Source: Planctomycetota bacterium (GTDB taxonomy: Bacteria > Planctomycetota > Planctomycetia > Pirellulales > UBA1268). Taken from it: 41,381 nucleotides of DNA. A program made the translations under genes and the position numbers. The DNA is taken from NCBI GenBank assembly GCA_016872555.1, contig VGZO01000037.1, forward strand, positions 1 through 41,381, in the 5' to 3' direction. The notes under the pieces are model-generated. The model was not told where the DNA came from. It was given only the letters and a program-made list of their open reading frames with translations, and made no database searches. This document shows positions 1-7,800 of this stretch, piece after piece. Positions within the stretch are counted from its first letter, which is position 1, and each line of letters starts with the position of its first letter.

Positions 1-163
1 GGGCGAGGCAAAGCAATAACATAACAACCGCAAATGGAAATCCAAGGCTTGTTTCGTCGTCGGAAAGGAACAACGGAAACAGTACCAAGCCAACGATAAC
101 GTACAACGCGGCACTGATGTGAAGACAAATGGTTGCTAGTCCAATCTTATGTTGCTTAGCCAC
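1..163 (-). CDS. partial cassette gene, small membrane protein (3' end outside window)
   Basis: Begins with GTG at 163, four to five bases after a GGAGAG ribosome binding site that lies just inside the cassette (which starts at 181). The first 54 residues read as a short basic N-terminus (VAKQHKIGL) followed by a hydrophobic helix of about 25 residues, an acidic loop (SDDETS) and the start of a second helix. It has the look of a two- or more-helix inner-membrane protein. I recognise no family. The position directly behind an attC site makes it the sixth cassette of the array, and it must end beyond base 1. Confidence 0.6.
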   Translation of the reverse strand, partial: MAKQHKIGLATICLHISAALYVIVGLVLFPLFLSDDETSLGFPFAVVMLLLCLA

Positions 164-174
164 TGTCTCTCCTT

Positions 175-268
175 CGCCGAACGACCATGTTGACCGAGCC
201 CCCGCCATCACGGTCTCTAAAGTTCGAAACGGACCGACGGGGGCTTCGGTCCAACATTTTGTTCGTGC
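175..268 (-). other. attC site between cassettes 5 and 6
   Basis: On the minus strand R'' GCACGAAC (268-261) opens the site and R' GTTCGGCG (182-175) closes it. The arms ATGTTGGACCGAAGCCCCC and GGGGGCTCGGTCAACAT pair with two unpaired bases on one side only, the asymmetric extrahelical bases typical of attC. R'' complements the start of the preceding cassette (TTCGTGC at 1068), not the R' of the same site, as expected in an array. Confidence 0.85.
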
Positions 269-269
269 T

Positions 270-1022
270 TTATCTGGTTGCGAGTTGCCGCAAGCGAGTC
301 TCGCCCATCTTTTCGCATTGGTCTTTCGCGAACCGAATCACTCCATCAATTTCCGTCGCATGGCAAGTCTCAGGCAATTGAATGATATCGTATGGGTAGG
401 AACCTGTCTGCAGGATCAGAAAGACATTGCCATCCTTCCGCGAAAACTCGCGATCCTGTACGGCCAAAAGGTCGCTGGTTCGATTCCAGATCGATCCATA
501 GGAGAAGGTATTTGATCCCTTTGCATTTAGGCGAATGTTGGTAACCGAGACATCGCGCCCGTCGCCAATCGATTCGTCGAGTTTTTCGTATCCCCGCGAT
601 GGATCGTACATGATGTACGCCAACAACGTTTTGATTCCTTTGGGATCAGCGTCATTCTTCGAGTGCCCAATCAATAAGTCGATTCGTCCAGAAAGCCTGC
701 TCAATTCGCGTGTATCACGCCGTACCACAATATGGTCACCCCGCTGCAATCCGAACATGAAAAGGTACAAGGCAACACTAATGCATGGAATTGCTATCCC
801 TACGTTGGACCAGTACCACGCTTGGAACACTCGACGTGCGAATCCTGTTTCGGAGAATTCGAGCGTGTTACCAACTTGCTGCGAGGTTACGAGTAGCGAA
901 ACAAGCGATGCGGGACCTAGTAGAAGGTTTGCCATCACATACAACGGAAAGGCGGCTAAACTTGCATATGGCGTCAACGCAACGAACAAGAATGAAGCAA
1001 TTTGTACGACGGCAGTTTTCAT
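270..1022 (-). CDS. cassette-borne membrane protein, function unknown
   Basis: A 250-residue protein starting at ATG 1022, with a GAGGG element about 11 bases upstream. Hydrophobic segments lie at roughly residues 5-23, 25-45 and 70-92, then a soluble region of about 150 residues begins with a basic stretch (QRGDHIVVRRDTREL). This suggests an inner-membrane anchored protein with a cytoplasmic or periplasmic C-terminal domain. The stop is two bases before the R'' box of its attC, so gene and recombination site are packed tightly. I do not recognise a family, and the neighbours say nothing about role because cassettes are independently acquired. Codon use is visibly less GC-rich than in the chromosomal genes to the right. 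Confidence 0.7.
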   Translation of the reverse strand: MKTAVVQIASFLFVALTPYASLAAFPLYVMANLLLGPASLVSLLVTSQQVGNTLEFSETGFARRVFQAWYWSNVGIAIPCISVALYLFMFGLQRGDHIVVRRDTRELSRLSGRIDLLIGHSKNDADPKGIKTLLAYIMYDPSRGYEKLDESIGDGRDVSVTNIRLNAKGSNTFSYGSIWNRTSDLLAVQDREFSRKDGNVFLILQTGSYPYDIIQLPETCHATEIDGVIRFAKDQCEKMGETRLRQLATR

Positions 1023-1061
1023 CAGATTTCTACCCTCATCCTACGCTCACTTCCGCCCAAT

Positions 1062-1153
1062 GCACGAACGGCTGGATTCAGCGAGCGGCGCCAAGGAAAC
1101 TTTCCAATGATGGTGCACGTCATCGCCGCTTCGCTGCAATCCATTGTTACCCC
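1062..1153 (-). other. attC site between cassettes 4 and 5
   Basis: On the minus strand R'' GGGGTAAC (1153-1146) and R' GTTCGTGC (1069-1062). Arms GGATTGCAGCGAAGCGGCG and CGCCGCTCGCTGAATCC pair with two extrahelical bases on one arm. The TAA inside R'' is the stop codon of the upstream gene. R'' matches the start of its own cassette (TTACCCC at 1519). Confidence 0.85.
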
Positions 1154-1488
1154 ATGTCTTGGATCGTGTCCAGCTGTTGAATCGGATCAAAATGATGCAG
1201 TAGAAGGTAGTCGTCCCATCCGTTCCGGCCAGTCATGGTAACGATGGCCGCAGTTCGTATCTCATTTCCGACCATACTGTCGGCAAGCAATGAGGTTTTC
1301 ATTGCATCCCAGGCTCCGACGGCATCATCTGACTCCACAAACAAGTTGATGTAGCGACCATTGTCGTCGCCTGATTCCGATGTAACGTTCAGTATCTGAC
1401 TCGAAAGAGTTTGGATGAGGTCGTTGATGCATTCCTCTGTCAACGTTTCAAGCCTGTCCATTTGGATTTGACAGCAAATCGTGTGCAT
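1147..1488 (-). CDS. cassette-borne small soluble protein, function unknown
   Basis: A 113-residue acidic, apparently cytoplasmic protein without membrane segments. ATG at 1488 lies about 30 bases inside the cassette; no good ribosome binding site is seen there, and an in-frame ATG ten codons later (at MDRLETL) is an alternative. The C-terminal half contains an LHHFDP motif that I cannot assign to a family. The stop codon TAA at 1147-1149 lies inside the R'' box (GGGGTAAC) of its attC, so the gene uses the recombination site for termination of translation. No function is assigned. Confidence 0.65.
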   Translation of the reverse strand: MHTICCQIQMDRLETLTEECINDLIQTLSSQILNVTSESGDDNGRYINLFVESDDAVGAWDAMKTSLLADSMVGNEIRTAAIVTMTGRNGWDDYLLLHHFDPIQQLDTIQDMG

Positions 1489-1512
1489 CGTCTAAACTGG
1501 AATCATCCCTCA

Positions 1513-1606
1513 GGGGTAACGACAGGCGTCACCCGGCGGCGGCCAAGTGACTCTCCATTCTGATTCCGCCCCGATCCGCCGCTCGGGTGGACGCCCTGGT
1601 TACGCC
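1513..1606 (-). other. attC site between cassettes 3 and 4
   Basis: On the minus strand R'' GGCGTAAC (1606-1599) and R' GTTACCCC (1520-1513). Arms CAGGGCGTCCACCCGAGCGG and CCGCCGGGTGACGCCTG pair with extrahelical bases in one arm. R'' is complementary to the first bases of the cassette it terminates (TTACGCC at 2015). Confidence 0.85.
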
Positions 1607-1756
1607 ACATTCTCTGCGGCGATTGCGTTTGACCGGGAATATATCCGCCAGCGATGGTCCGCGTAGCCGTTTCCCGATTGATGCTGGATCGCCCGACCAC
1701 GTGGTCTTTGTCGGAGTCACAGCACTCCAGTTGGCCCATCGTCCGCGGACGCTTGA

Positions 1757-1963
1757 TCATTTCATGTCGCCGGACTTCTTGAGAATCAAAAAACCCGCAC
1801 CGATGAATGCCAACGCGATGCCAAAAACAACAATCACAGACCATCGGCCAACCCCAAACACCTCGACGAACTGTGCTGAGTCGTACATGCGTCGAACAAT
1901 CGCACCAGAGATCCCAAGGAACACACCAAATCCAGACAGAAAGCGGCCAACCCAGATGGTCAT
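1757..1963 (-). CDS. cassette-borne 68-residue two-helix membrane protein
   Basis: Starts at ATG 1963 with TGAGG eight bases upstream. It consists of two hydrophobic helices (about residues 6-26 and 40-60) joined by a short polar loop (RRMYDSAQF), ending in a basic tail (KKSGDMK). The size and layout fit a small inner-membrane protein; no family recognised. A 150-bp stretch (1607-1756) separates its stop from the attC. Overlapping open frames there are GC-driven and have no start signals. It is the third cassette from the integrase-proximal end. Confidence 0.55.
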   Translation of the reverse strand: MTIWVGRFLSGFGVFLGISGAIVRRMYDSAQFVEVFGVGRWSVIVVFGIALAFIGAGFLILKKSGDMK

Positions 1964-2008
1964 CAGAGTGCCTCACCAATGAGTGTCGAAAGAATCGATT
2001 GCGGTCGT

Positions 2009-2104
2009 GGCGTAACGACACCGTTCACCTGCGCGGCGGCTGGTGACACGTTGAACCCTGAAAACCCGAGATGCCGCCGCGTCAGGTGCAACGGCTGGTT
2101 AGCC
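2009..2104 (-). other. attC site between cassettes 2 and 3
   Basis: On the minus strand R'' GGCTAAC (2104-2098) and R' GTTACGCC (2016-2009). Arms CCGTTGCACCTGACGCGGCG and CGCCGCGCAGGTGAACGG pair nearly perfectly, with two extrahelical bases on one arm. The TAA within R'' is the stop codon of the DUF4303 gene. R'' complements the first bases of its own cassette (TTAGCC at 2701). Confidence 0.9.
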
Positions 2105-2683
2105 GTTTTCGCTCGTGTCATCCGGTGCGTCAGCGTTCCAGTTGATGAAACGATTGGCTACATCTGGCGGATTAAGCGCCGAAACCCAGCTATTGACCAA
2201 TTCCCCATCTAGGTCGCCGACCAATGCCAATGTGATTTTGGAGCGCTCAGGCCCTGAGCCGAAAAAGCCGTCTTTCTCCAGCCGCTGGAATCCGCTCAAG
2301 ACTGCGGCCCAAAGCGAGTCGATCCGGGCTTCGAACTCTTCTTCCGGCCCATCGATATATTCGATGAGGGCTTCGTTGATCTCCGCAAAATGCTCCTCGC
2401 CGAAATTCGCGAAGTGACCCCAGTCGCCGTACGACCACCGCATTCCCGCGCGAGTCGATGTTGACCCATACTTGGGATCTACGGTCTCCCGGTAGCGCTG
2501 GACAGTTGCGGTCAAGGCCTCCTCCGTGTTGGCGGCGGGGTGTATGAACTGAAGCGAATCGTCCGTGAACACGGCGAAAGCATAGAAGTGCTGACCCGGG
2601 TTTGCGCGGATCAGCTCCGAAAAAGCAGCCTTCAGCGCCGCATGAACGTGATCGGCAAGTTGGTCGAGTACGGTCAATGCCAT
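2099..2683 (-). CDS. DUF4303-like protein, cassette-borne
   Basis: A 194-residue soluble protein from ATG 2683, which has AAGGTGG a few bases upstream. The HFYAFAVFTDDS region, the PAANTEEAL region, the RWSYGDWGHF motif and the EEHFAEINEAL helix correspond in order to what I know of DUF4303 proteins. DUF4303 proteins are often found as small stand-alone genes near polymorphic toxins and may act as immunity proteins; that is general knowledge, not shown here. The stop TAA is embedded in the R'' box of its attC. An upstream in-frame extension (to 2728) would overlap the previous attC and is rejected. Confidence 0.7.
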   Translation of the reverse strand: MALTVLDQLADHVHAALKAAFSELIRANPGQHFYAFAVFTDDSLQFIHPAANTEEALTATVQRYRETVDPKYGSTSTRAGMRWSYGDWGHFANFGEEHFAEINEALIEYIDGPEEEFEARIDSLWAAVLSGFQRLEKDGFFGSGPERSKITLALVGDLDGELVNSWVSALNPPDVANRFINWNADAPDDTSENG

Positions 2684-2695
2684 CGGTCCACCTTC

Positions 2696-2788
2696 GGCTA
2701 ACGACCGCGGTAACGGGGCCGCCGCCAAAAAGCTATGATTTCAAAAGCCGCGTCACCGGCGGCTCCCGTTCACCGCCTTGTTCGCAGG
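2696..2788 (-). other. attC site between cassettes 1 and 2
   Basis: On the minus strand R'' CCTGCGAAC (2788-2780) and R' GTTAGCC (2702-2696). Arms AAGGCGGTGAACGGGAGCC and GCCCCGTTACCGC pair with extrahelical bases. R'' matches the start of the first cassette (TTCGCAGG at 3508), 720 bp away. Confidence 0.85.
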
Positions 2789-2807
2789 TTGATCTCGGCC
2801 GGAGTGC

Positions 2808-3476
2808 TCAATTCCGGAGCGCGGTGAGCCACCACCACCGTCTGGCAAATGCCCCGTTAAGTTTATACTCACCGTTGTCGTGAAACTCTAGTTGGACCTC
2901 CATCGGCTGACCAATGCCGAGAAAGACAGGCTCGTCCGCAGTTGGTTCGATCGTGTTAGAGCCATCTTGCGCCCGAAAGGTCGCTACTCCCTCGTTCGAA
3001 TAATGCAAAACCCATGTGCGAGTGTCGCCGGGCTGCAGAGCCTCAAATTCAACGGAATGATCTGGGGCAAGTGCCGGCTCGATCCAAACGCGAACCGGAC
3101 CTAAAACACGATCCGCCGAATTCGTGATCGTAACAATGTGCAAATCGAGTAAAGAGCCTGCCATCTTCCAGCACACTACAGCGAGTGGAAGGTTAGCAAG
3201 CAGTATTGAAATGCCCAAGACAACTGCCCGGCTCGAAGCACCTCGGCGTAAAGCAAGAACCACCAATCCCAAGCCAACTGGGAGCAGAAGCAGTCCCAGG
3301 CCAATTGCGAGAATGCCAAGCACATAAAATGGGCCTACATCCTCCGTACGCCCCCCGGCTGCATACCACCCCAAAACCCCGCTGACCCCGAGCGCACCGG
3401 GGAGAACTGCACACCATCGGGAGAACCGCAGCAGTCGCGTCAGACGTTCTTTGGACTCCACGGTAGAGGTCGTCAT
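2808..3476 (-). CDS. cassette-borne membrane protein with C-terminal extracytoplasmic domain
   Basis: First cassette of the array. ATG at 3476 gives 222 residues; a GTG at 3485 in the same frame would add three. Three hydrophobic helices (about residues 20-42, 50-75 and 84-108) are followed by a roughly 110-residue domain of beta-rich character (VTITNSADRVLGPVRVWIE, then a charged PGDTRTW turn) that resembles small exported beta-sandwich domains but matches no family I can name. An RRWWW cluster sits near the C-terminus. Being first, it would be closest to any cassette promoter. Confidence 0.6.
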   Translation of the reverse strand: MTTSTVESKERLTRLLRFSRWCAVLPGALGVSGVLGWYAAGGRTEDVGPFYVLGILAIGLGLLLLPVGLGLVVLALRRGASSRAVVLGISILLANLPLAVVCWKMAGSLLDLHIVTITNSADRVLGPVRVWIEPALAPDHSVEFEALQPGDTRTWVLHYSNEGVATFRAQDGSNTIEPTADEPVFLGIGQPMEVQLEFHDNGEYKLNGAFARRWWWLTALRN

Positions 3477-3500
3477 CCTATGCACCGCATAAAACCAGAG

Positions 3501-3560
3501 CCTGCGAACTCGTATTTCTACAGTCTGTATAAACGTCCCAGCGCGCCTGTTAACGCACCT
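3501..3560 (-). other. integrase-proximal boundary of the array (attI or degenerate attC)
   Basis: The minus strand has GTTCGCAGG at 3509-3501, which matches the R'' box at the end of cassette 1 and therefore marks its recombination point. Upstream, GCGTTAAC (about 3555-3548) could be an R''-like box, but the sequence between does not form the long arms seen at the other five sites. That makes an attI-type site or a decayed attC more likely than a normal attC. Which of the two cannot be decided without an integrase gene. Confidence 0.45.
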
Positions 3561-3906
3561 GGGCCACGAAGCGAAGAGCGTCCCGAAGCTTTACCTCCGT
3601 CGCGACTTGCAGTCCGCACCGAGCCAGGCCCCGCGGGTGAATCACAAGCGCAGACCGCAGTATATCGCACCCCCTGCGCAGGCGTCTACGCCCCCCGAAG
3701 ACTTGCCGTTCGACCCAGCTTCCACGAACTGAGCGTTCGGGCCGGTCGCCTCCCGCCGCGGCCGGCGTTGCCCCGGCGCTGGCCCGGGCATCAGTTTCAG
3801 CCTTTCGAGCCAAGAGCAGCTTCGCGATCACCGGCTCCGGGCTATGCCGTCTCGGTCGTCGTGTCGCCCTTGAAGTCTCCTCGGCCAAGGCCGCGGTGAC
3901 CTTCAT
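3550..3906 (-). pseudogene. possible degraded IS3-family OrfA-like fragment
   Basis: The N-terminal part of this open frame (RRPRRHSPEPVIAKL, then KAETDARASAGAT) resembles the helix-turn-helix start of IS3/IS911 OrfA proteins, where a charged RRHSPEQ-type stretch is followed by an AEA..ASG segment. The remainder loses resemblance, no OrfB follows, and no terminal inverted repeats were identified. It fills most of the 483-bp stretch (3507-3989) between the array and the methyltransferase gene. If real, it marks an insertion at the edge of the integron, which could explain why no integrase gene is adjacent. It could also be spurious GC-rich coding potential. Confidence 0.3.
3659..3688 (-). promoter_or_regulatory. 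candidate sigma70-type promoter directed into the cassette array
   Basis: On the minus strand TAGACG (3688-3683) and TATACT (3664-3659) are separated by 18 bp. They match the -35 and -10 consensus at four and five of six positions. It lies about 150 bp upstream of the first cassette boundary and points into the array, the place and direction expected for a cassette promoter (Pc). Similarity alone; in this GC-rich DNA an AT-rich -10 element stands out. Confidence 0.35.
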
Positions 3907-4830: not shown

Positions 4831-7800
4831 ATGGCCCTTCGCTCCCCGTTCGCTCCCGCCGCGGCGCTGCTCGTGACCGGCGTGCTCGCCGCGTCGGCCG
4901 CGGAATCGTCGCGCGAGTTGGTCACGTTCTCGACGCGGGCGCTCGACCGGTCGTTCGTCGCCGAAGGGGCGGCGATCGGCGACCTCGACGGCGACGGCCA
5001 TGCCGACCTCGTCGCCGGCCCGTGGTGGTATCGCGGTCCGGAGTTTTCCGAGCGCCATGAATTCATGCCCGCCAAGCCGTTCGACCCGGCGGGATATTCC
5101 GACAATTTTTTCGTCTGGGTCCGCGACGTCAGCGGCGACGGCCGCAACGACATCGTGCTCTACGGCTTCCCGGGTCAGGATGCGTCGTGGTTCGAAAACC
5201 CCGGGAAGGACCCCGGTGTGGGTCACTGGAAAAAGCATGTCGCCGTCGCCGAGCTCGACAACGAGTCGCCGGCGTTTACCGATGTGAGCGGCGACGGGAA
5301 GCCCGACATCGTCGGCTCGGTCGGGGGATTCTTCGGCTATGCCACGGCCGGTGCCGACCCGCGGCAGCCGTGGACGTTTCATCGCATCTCGCCGCAGGTG
5401 GCGGGAGGGAAATTCACCCACGGCCTCGGCGTCGGCGACGTCGATGGCGACGGCCGCCCCGACATCCTCGAGAAGAATGGCTGGTGGCGCCAGCCCGAAT
5501 CGCTCGCCGGCGATCCGCTCTGGCAGCGGAACGAAGTCGCCTTCTCGCGCCCCGGCGGCGCGCAGATGCTCGTCAGCGACGTCGATGGCGACGGCCTGGC
5601 CGACGTGATCACGAGCCTCGCCGCCCACGGCTACGGGCTCTCCTGGTACCGGCAGTCGCGCGCCGCCGATGGCACGCGCTCGTTCGAACAGCGCCCGATC
5701 ACCGGCGACGCGCCGTCGGACAATCCGTTTCGCGTGGCGTTTTCGCAGATCCACGCGCTGGCGCTGGCCGACATCGATGGCGACGGTGTCGACGATGTCG
5801 TCACCGGCAAGCGCTGGTGGGCCCACGGCGCGAAAGGCGACCCCGAGCCCGACGCGGCGGCGGTGGTGTATTGGTTTCGCACCACGCGCTCGGCCGACGG
5901 CGTCGAGCTGGTGCCGCACCTGATCCACGACGACTCCGGGGTGGGTGTCCAGGTGACCGTCGGCGACGCCACCGGCGACGGCCGGGCAGACGTGCTGGTG
6001 TCGAACAAGAAGGGGACGTTTCTCCATACCCAGGCGCGGAAGGCGGTGAGCCTCGCCGACTGGGAAGCCGCCCAGCCGCGCCGCCGGCGCGCGATGGCAA
6101 ATGGCCTCGCTCCCGCCGAAGCGGCCGCGGCGATGAGCCTGCCGCCGGGATTCCAGGTGACGCTGTTGGCCGGCGAGCCCGATGTCTGCCAGCCGATCGC
6201 GATGTGCTTCGACGACCGCGGCCGGCTGTGGGTGGCCGAGGCCTACTCCTATCCCAAGCGCGTGCCGAAGGAGGAGGCCCGTGACCGGATCCTGATCTTC
6301 GAAGACACCGACGGCGACTCGACGCTCGACTCGCGGAAGGTGTTTGCCGACGGGCTGAACCTCGTCAGCGGCCTCGCGGTCGGGTTCGGCGGGGTGTGGG
6401 TCGGGGCGGCGCCGGAGTTTCTCTTCATCCCCGACCGCGATGGCGACGACCGCCCCGACGGCCCGGCCGAGGTGCTCCTCGACGGCTGGGGCTACGAAGA
6501 CACCCACGAGACGCTCAACGCCTTCATCTGGGGGCCCGACGGCTGGCTGTATGGCTGCCACGGCGTGTTTACCCATTCCAACGTCGGCAAGCCGGGGGCC
6601 GGCGACGACGCGCGGAAGCGGATCAACGCCGGGATCTGGCGCTACCACCCCACGCGCCATCTGTTCGAGGTCTTTTCCGAGGGGACGAGCAACCCCTGGG
6701 GCGTCGATTTCAACGACCTCGGCCACGCCTTCCAGACCGCGTGCGTGATCCCGCACCTGTACCACGTGATTCCTTTGGCGCGCTACCAGCGCCAGGCCGG
6801 GCAGCACTTCAATCCCCACACCTACGACGACATCAAGACGATCGCCCGCCACCGCCACTGGACCGGCGGCCAGTGGAACAACGCCGACCGCGAGAAGTCC
6901 GACGCGATCGGCGGCGGTCATGCCCATTGCGGGGCGATGGTGTATCTCGGCGGCGCGTGGCCGGAGCGCTACCGCGGCAAGCTGTTCATGAACAACATCC
7001 ATGGCGCCCGGCTCAATCAAGACCGTTTGGAACCGGCCGGGAGCGGCTACGTCGGCGACGGCGACCCCGACTTCCTGTTTGCCAACGACACCTGGTCGCA
7101 GTTCATTTCGCTCCAGACCGGGCCCGACGGCCAGATGGTGCTGATCGACTGGTACGACGCCAACCAGTGCCACCACCACGACTTCGCCAAGCACGACCGG
7201 GGCAACGGCCGGATCTACAAGGTCAGCTACGGCCGTCCGCAGGGGGTGAAGGTCGATCTCGGCAAGGCGACCGATGCCGAGCTCGTCGCCCACCTGGCCA
7301 GCGACAACGACTGGTTCGTGCGCCATGCCCGGCGCCTGCTCCAGGAGCGCGCCGCCACCGGCCGGCTCGCGAGCGACACTCCGGCGCGGCTCCGGGGGGC
7401 GCTCGAGTCTGCTTCGACGGCGGCCAAGCGGCTGCGTGTCGTGTGGGCCCTGTCGGTCACCGGCCTGCTCGATGCCGCCGGCCTCGAGAAGCTGCTCGGC
7501 GATCCCGATCCGGCCGTGCGCGGCTGGGCGGTGCGCCTCGCCAGCCAGCGGGACGACATCCCCGTCGACGTGCTCGTCGCCAGCGGCACGCAGCTCGCCC
7601 TCGGCGATCCCTCGCCGGTGGTCCGCCTCGAGCTCTGCTCGGCGCTGTTGCGGCTGCCGCCCGCGGCGCGCTGGCCCGTGGCCGAGGCGCTCGTGACCCA
7701 CGCCGAGGACGCCGACGACCACAACCTGCCGCTGATGAATTGGTATGTCGTCGAGCCGCTGGTCGTCGTCGACCCGCCCCGGGCCCTGGCGCTGGCGGCC

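Follow-up and report, generated by a model that had tools for sequence, protein, structure and literature searches.

A gene cassette array headed by a promoter-attI module away from the only integron integrase gene found in a planctomycete genome

Integrons typically have a single attI site near the integrase gene, and attI sites other than those of class 1, which IntegronFinder 2.0 does not search for, have been little described (excerpts of PMC9024848). Because the program searches for attI of class 1 only, attI sites at the head of other arrays would be missed. Three origins have been proposed for integrase-less cassette clusters (CALINs), namely off-target insertion, loss of intI and rearrangement (excerpts of PMC8618304), and CALIN cassettes are reported to be excisable or capturable in trans (excerpts of PMC9668308). 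The accessible portions of these three papers do not describe attI-headed arrays that lack intI and coexist with a single remote intI. The open-access literature likewise yielded no description of several attI sites served by one intI; this is weak evidence, as subscription papers mostly lie outside it.

The DNA analyzed here (the window, 41,381 nucleotides) is the entire contig C37 of the planctomycete MAG G000, which comprises 4.47 Mb in 162 contigs and is 97.9% complete, with a contamination estimate of 3.18%. Positions 1-3508 are an integron cassette array on the minus strand that comprises six cassettes, of which the sixth is truncated at the contig edge, and five attC sites (Table 1). 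A preliminary description of this DNA had named it an integron cassette array. The five cassette/attC pairs on which that was based are real, but no integrase adjoins them, and the attI/promoter head at 3507-3680 had been overlooked.

The attC sites carry R''/R' and L''/L' boxes, have core lengths of 90-96 bp and fold on the bottom strand into hairpins with two unpaired bases, as is typical of attC; the folds have z values of -2.7 to -4.1 relative to dinucleotide shuffles. When the five window sites are aligned with an attC of contig C101 (n=6), all 120 cells of a 20-pair stem hold standard pairs, compared with only 30-56% when the partner is moved by one to three columns. Among the six sites, 12 of the 20 pairs differ on both sides, which none of 500 shuffles equals. 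A covariance model built from these six detects arrays in many relatives and matches an untrained attC (C65:14431-14523, 90.3 bits). The model was trained on the window sites that it scores, and what supports them independently is the covariation, the pairing with R'' and the matches not used in training. No Rfam match is found within the window at the gathering threshold. The six breakpoints first proposed (3509/3508, 2702/2701, 2016/2015, 1520/1519, 1069/1068 and 182/181) each fall on G/TT in the minus strand, the slash marking the crossover. Complementarity between the start of each cassette and its own R'' box, also claimed at the outset, extends over 8, 7 (read by hand, cassette 2), 9, 7 and 7 consecutive pairs, against at most four with the R'' of any other cassette. 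Such pairing, together with movement as a unit seen in relatives, marks these segments as gene cassettes.

Table 1. Positions of the cassettes, attC sites and promoter-attI module of the window
Feature	Position	Strand	Description
Cassette 1	2702-3508	-	807 bp; predicted membrane protein, ~222 aa
Cassette 2	2016-2701	-	686 bp; DUF4303 protein, ORF 2683-2099; Pfam PF14136, E 1.5e-26
Cassette 3	1520-2015	-	496 bp; small membrane-like protein, 68 aa, 1963-1757
Cassette 4	1069-1519	-	451 bp; uncharacterized 113-aa protein, 1488-1147
Cassette 5	182-1068	-	887 bp; membrane protein, 250 aa, 1022-270
Cassette 6	1-181	-	cut by contig end; membrane protein start
attC1	2696-2785	-	fold, stem alignment; 92% identity over 87 bp with attC at C65:14434-14520
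attC2	2009-2104	-	fold, stem alignment, covariance model
attC3	1513-1606	-	fold, stem alignment, covariance model
attC4	1062-1153	-	fold, stem alignment, covariance model
attC5	176-268	-	fold, stem alignment, covariance model
attI core TTATACAGACTGTAGAAATACGAG/TT	3507-3532	-	crossover between 3509 (G) and 3508 (T); 20/24 bases identical to C101:786-811
Promoter-leader-attI module ("satellite platform")	3507-3680	-	174-base alignment with 16 other modules
-10 box TATACT, predicted Pc-like promoter	3659-3664	-	within GCGATATACTGC
Possible -35 TAGACG	3688-3683	-	18 bp spacing to -10 box
Inverted repeat, 3' arm, GGTGCGTTAACAGGCGC	3543-3559	-	leader
Inverted repeat, 5' arm, GCGCTTGTGATTCACC	3636-3651	-	leader; degenerate in window copy

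The cargo had been called almost entirely unknown, which is nearly right: the protein of cassette 2 is the sole one with a Pfam match. It had also been considered that relatives might always keep these genes together. They do not, and other genomes have only attC sites in common with the window array, the exception being a relative of cassette 6. This is a gene of another genus (G008:C142) that stands alone there and has 84% identity; the likeness begins 7 bp inside the cassette, and the two diverge only a few bases from the predicted breakpoint. Plasmid records contain no similar DNA. On its right-hand side the array is bounded by an FkbM methyltransferase gene (PF05050; 3990-4703, plus strand), which is outside the integron. 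In G001, of the same genus, the methyltransferase gene is present with neither module nor attC before it. G001 was considered as a simple empty site and rejected, since the upstream gene differs and the ends of an insertion are therefore not defined.

The sequence at the head of the array matches the attI that adjoins the integrase gene on C101, and the first cassette is joined to it at G/TT. The likeness to C101 runs upstream from attI through the leader to the -10 box. Across 17 such modules from six genomes, aligned over 174 bases, mean column identity is 68%. The best-conserved stretch outside attI, GCGATATACTGC with its TATACT, is present in nearly all modules, both intI-linked and satellite, and is predicted to be a Pc-like promoter that reads into the array. 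The leader holds a conserved inverted repeat, of which 76% of cells pair across the 17 modules, compared with 27-44% in slid controls. In several modules the repeat is near-perfect (GCGCCTGTTAACGCACC / GGTGCGTTAACACGC). The 17 modules display no covariation in the repeat beyond that of shuffles, and the consensus RNA fold of the 174-bp module is essentially nil (-0.09 kcal/mol); a riboswitch in the leader was for these reasons considered and rejected.

No intI was found in the window, which covers 37.8 kb beyond the module. Lacking an adjoining integrase, the array does not constitute a complete integron locus. With at least two attC sites and no neighboring intI it has the composition of a CALIN.

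The only integron integrase found in G000 is encoded on C101 (1075-2175). The protein is a tyrosine recombinase that scores 443.7 bits with TIGR02249 (cutoff 265) and aligns nearly full length with PDB 2a3v (IntI4; E 6e-78), through the IntI-specific extra region; the other matches in the genome score much lower (55 bits). The gene is read in the direction of its cassettes. Promoter and attI lie downstream of its stop codon, and the first cassette begins ~290 bp after the stop codon, at ...TTATACGGACCGTATAAATACAAG/TT. Short tandem repeats of GAGCGGAGGCGGGACTCTC are found between genes upstream of this locus (L008, ~5400-5490).

The attI core occurs four times in G000 (C37, C65, C89 and C101), with ~0.02 matches expected by chance, and the reversed pattern does not occur. 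attC sites follow attI at C37, C101 and C65. No intI adjoins the modules of C37, C65 and C89, the last of which has 8.4 kb beyond the module. The attI head would thus make what looks like a plain cassette cluster one of four or more attI platforms, all in a genome with only one intI. At C65 a single contig spans the whole array, in the order attI, ECF sigma factor cassette, attC, glycosyltransferase cassette, attC, followed by ordinary genes. This small, complete satellite array (L014, 13622-15949) also has a membrane protein following the ECF sigma factor. More attC sites are located at the start of contig C31 (L075, 1-5600), probably the tail of a broken array.

The exact attI core is found on 17 contigs from 10 MAGs of the GTDB genome set, with the labels Planctomycetaceae, Planctomycetia, Planctomycetota and Kuenenia (two); isolate names suggest lakes and reservoirs. 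An intI adjoins attI at L078, L090, L091, L072/L085 and L069/L089. The remaining exact-core contigs have no adjoining intI in the available DNA, which for L077 is only ~480 bp upstream. One intI gene is found beside two to three attI sites that have no intact adjoining intI in each of G010 (three attI, one intI), G026 (four attI, one intI) and G002 (four modules including C233, one intI gene and a 51-aa remnant); these counts are from fragmented MAGs, as are all genomes compared, in which a second intI might be overlooked. One intI-linked and one satellite attI were found in each of RH-20APR16-plancto2 and Jr-28aug17-13. The neighborhood of the intI locus is conserved in G000, G010 and G026, and the locus is therefore probably inherited vertically. 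The satellites have flanks unlike those of the intI locus, and one of them, G010C25, is orthologous to G026C35 and at the same locus.

Several observations indicate that satellite attI sites are used. In L077, cassette 3 is preceded by an attC, reading ...GCGGACG/TTCGGC..., and the satellite attI of L088 reads ...AAATACGAG/TTCGGC..., followed by DNA that is 98% identical to this cassette over 378 bp. The identity starts at the crossover, G/TT. The same relation holds between a cassette behind an attC in G002C165 and one behind the attI of satellite G001C11. The satellites G010C56 and L077 have first cassettes that are 100% identical over 472 bp; the end of the common cassette coincides exactly with the attC crossover, past which the two sequences are different. 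G003C28 and L079 display the same first-cassette start behind different modules. In addition, the ends of four contigs with attI are no more than 6 bp from the crossover, compared with ~0.02 expected. This fits first cassettes that vary in the population, although repeats also break assemblies. Activity of the window attI itself would follow from its homology to these satellites.

Three further genera hold satellites that match their own, different attI core. The intI-linked and intI-less sites are, respectively, C10 and C9 in G006, C42 and C124 in G020, and C47 and C7 in G035. The G006 satellite core agrees with its own intI-linked core at 23 of 24 positions and with the G000 cores at no more than 15 of 24. 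Taken together, satellite cores of G000 and G006 match the intI-linked attI of their own genus at 18-23 of 24 positions, and those of other groups at 15 or fewer. Such joint change of entry site and integrase is what use in trans predicts. G020, G027, G012 and G035 have one common core type, for which the within-genus match is not specific. G027 has an attI without intI on C89, and its intI, on another contig, is interrupted by a stop; G012 has an attI without intI on C203, and no intI was found.

G020 has a recent copy of the attI end of a module: L110 and L112 are nearly identical over the ~110 bp from CCGTA to the crossover and have unrelated DNA upstream. Because the upstream regions are unrelated, copying of the module apparently need not include the promoter. 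Perhaps this pair shows how satellites are born. An attI head is not universal in arrays without intI, since none was recognized in the arrays of G006 on contigs other than C9 and C10 (e.g., G006:C1) or at L099 (G004:C18, ~69.6-93.5 kb), an array of at least 16 cassettes in a 20-contig genome in which no intI was found. The G004:C18 array adjoins a carbohydrate-kinase-like gene.

The most economical account of these data is one of action in trans. It is very likely that the window array was built at a satellite attI, part of a promoter/leader/attI module of ~170 bp, by the sole integrase of the genome acting from elsewhere. The C101 integrase, whose gene adjoins a module copy of its own, would act on the attI sites of C37, C65 and C89. 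It would recombine the folded bottom strand of a cassette attC with attI at several places in the genome, cutting each time at G/TT, and the promoter of each module would read into the newest cassettes. Both the service of the window attI by this integrase and the promoter function are predictions from sequence comparison. More broadly, a freshwater planctomycete lineage probably has a distributed integron, in which one integrase serves dispersed promoter-attI platforms that each build and express their own array; the module would then be a genetic unit that is itself copied, and many arrays currently classed as CALINs may be platforms in use. Counting against action in trans, four of the 24 core bases of the window attI are not those of C101, and the leader repeat of the window is degenerate. 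For these reasons the window attI could be less active than that of C101. The cassettes could also have reached the window when intI was still local.

This raises the question of whether the window is a decayed ordinary integron, from which a local intI was deleted, leaving a relic CALIN with an attI out of use. We consider this unlikely for the window, even though loss of intI is one proposed origin of CALINs (excerpts of PMC8618304) and the degraded leader repeat would agree with it. At one satellite the process is seemingly visible: L066 (G002:C165) has, at 3238-3378 and just upstream of attI, a 51-aa C-terminal integrase remnant. This locus appears to be an integron caught in losing its integrase, and some platforms thus arose from whole integrons minus intI. 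No intI remnant was found near the window module or near satellites other than G002C165. Decay also does not readily explain why satellite flanks differ from the intI locus, why satellite attI sites of relatives carry exchanged cassettes, and why satellite cores vary together with the intI-linked attI within each group. Loss of intI nevertheless contributes to intI-less platforms, because one satellite keeps a remnant and some intI-less arrays have no attI head.

An artefact of assembly or binning, in which attI contigs without intI are foreign or misjoined and there is in truth one attI beside one intI, is very improbable. The genomes are MAGs in many contigs, the contamination estimate given above applies to the host and arrays do break contigs, but the modules differ from one another in sequence and are embedded in contigs with long stretches of non-integron DNA at their sides (37.8 kb in the window), independent MAGs and genera whose attI cores are unrelated show the same layout, and one satellite is kept at one locus in two species. 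Insertion at a chance secondary site, with the attI-like sequence a coincidence or a general promoter element, can be dismissed as having next to no likelihood: it is a proposed CALIN origin (excerpts of PMC8618304) and would suit the arrays with no recognized attI (G004:C18, G006:C1), but it is disfavored by the shared 174-bp module, as the 26-base core and ~150 bp upstream are common to the window and the intI-linked attI and only ~0.02 core matches are expected by chance.

If action in trans by a single integrase is correct, newly captured genes would be first in line, and hence expressed, at several places in the genome simultaneously, and part of the many integrase-less cassette clusters would be explained. 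There is also a practical gap: since searches cover no attI other than that of class 1, such platforms are counted as orphan clusters.

All parts of the system belong to known families; what is new is the arrangement. The system has attC sites, attI, promoter, cassettes and an IntI of the types that are standard in sedentary chromosomal integrons, and the C101 locus is itself such an integron, with intI read in the direction of its cassettes. The window differs in having attI and promoter without intI, and the genome in having several attI sites per intI. With five attC sites and no intI nearby, the window resembles a CALIN and would be classed as such by standard attC-based software. It differs from a CALIN in that attI and promoter head the array, which suggests a possible entry point and not just a cassette store. 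Class 1 integrons can retain attI1 after intI1 damage, and the window likewise combines attI and promoter with the lack of a functional integrase nearby. Unlike those of damaged integrons, the separated attI sites described here are found again in other genera, and two species have one of them conserved at the same locus.
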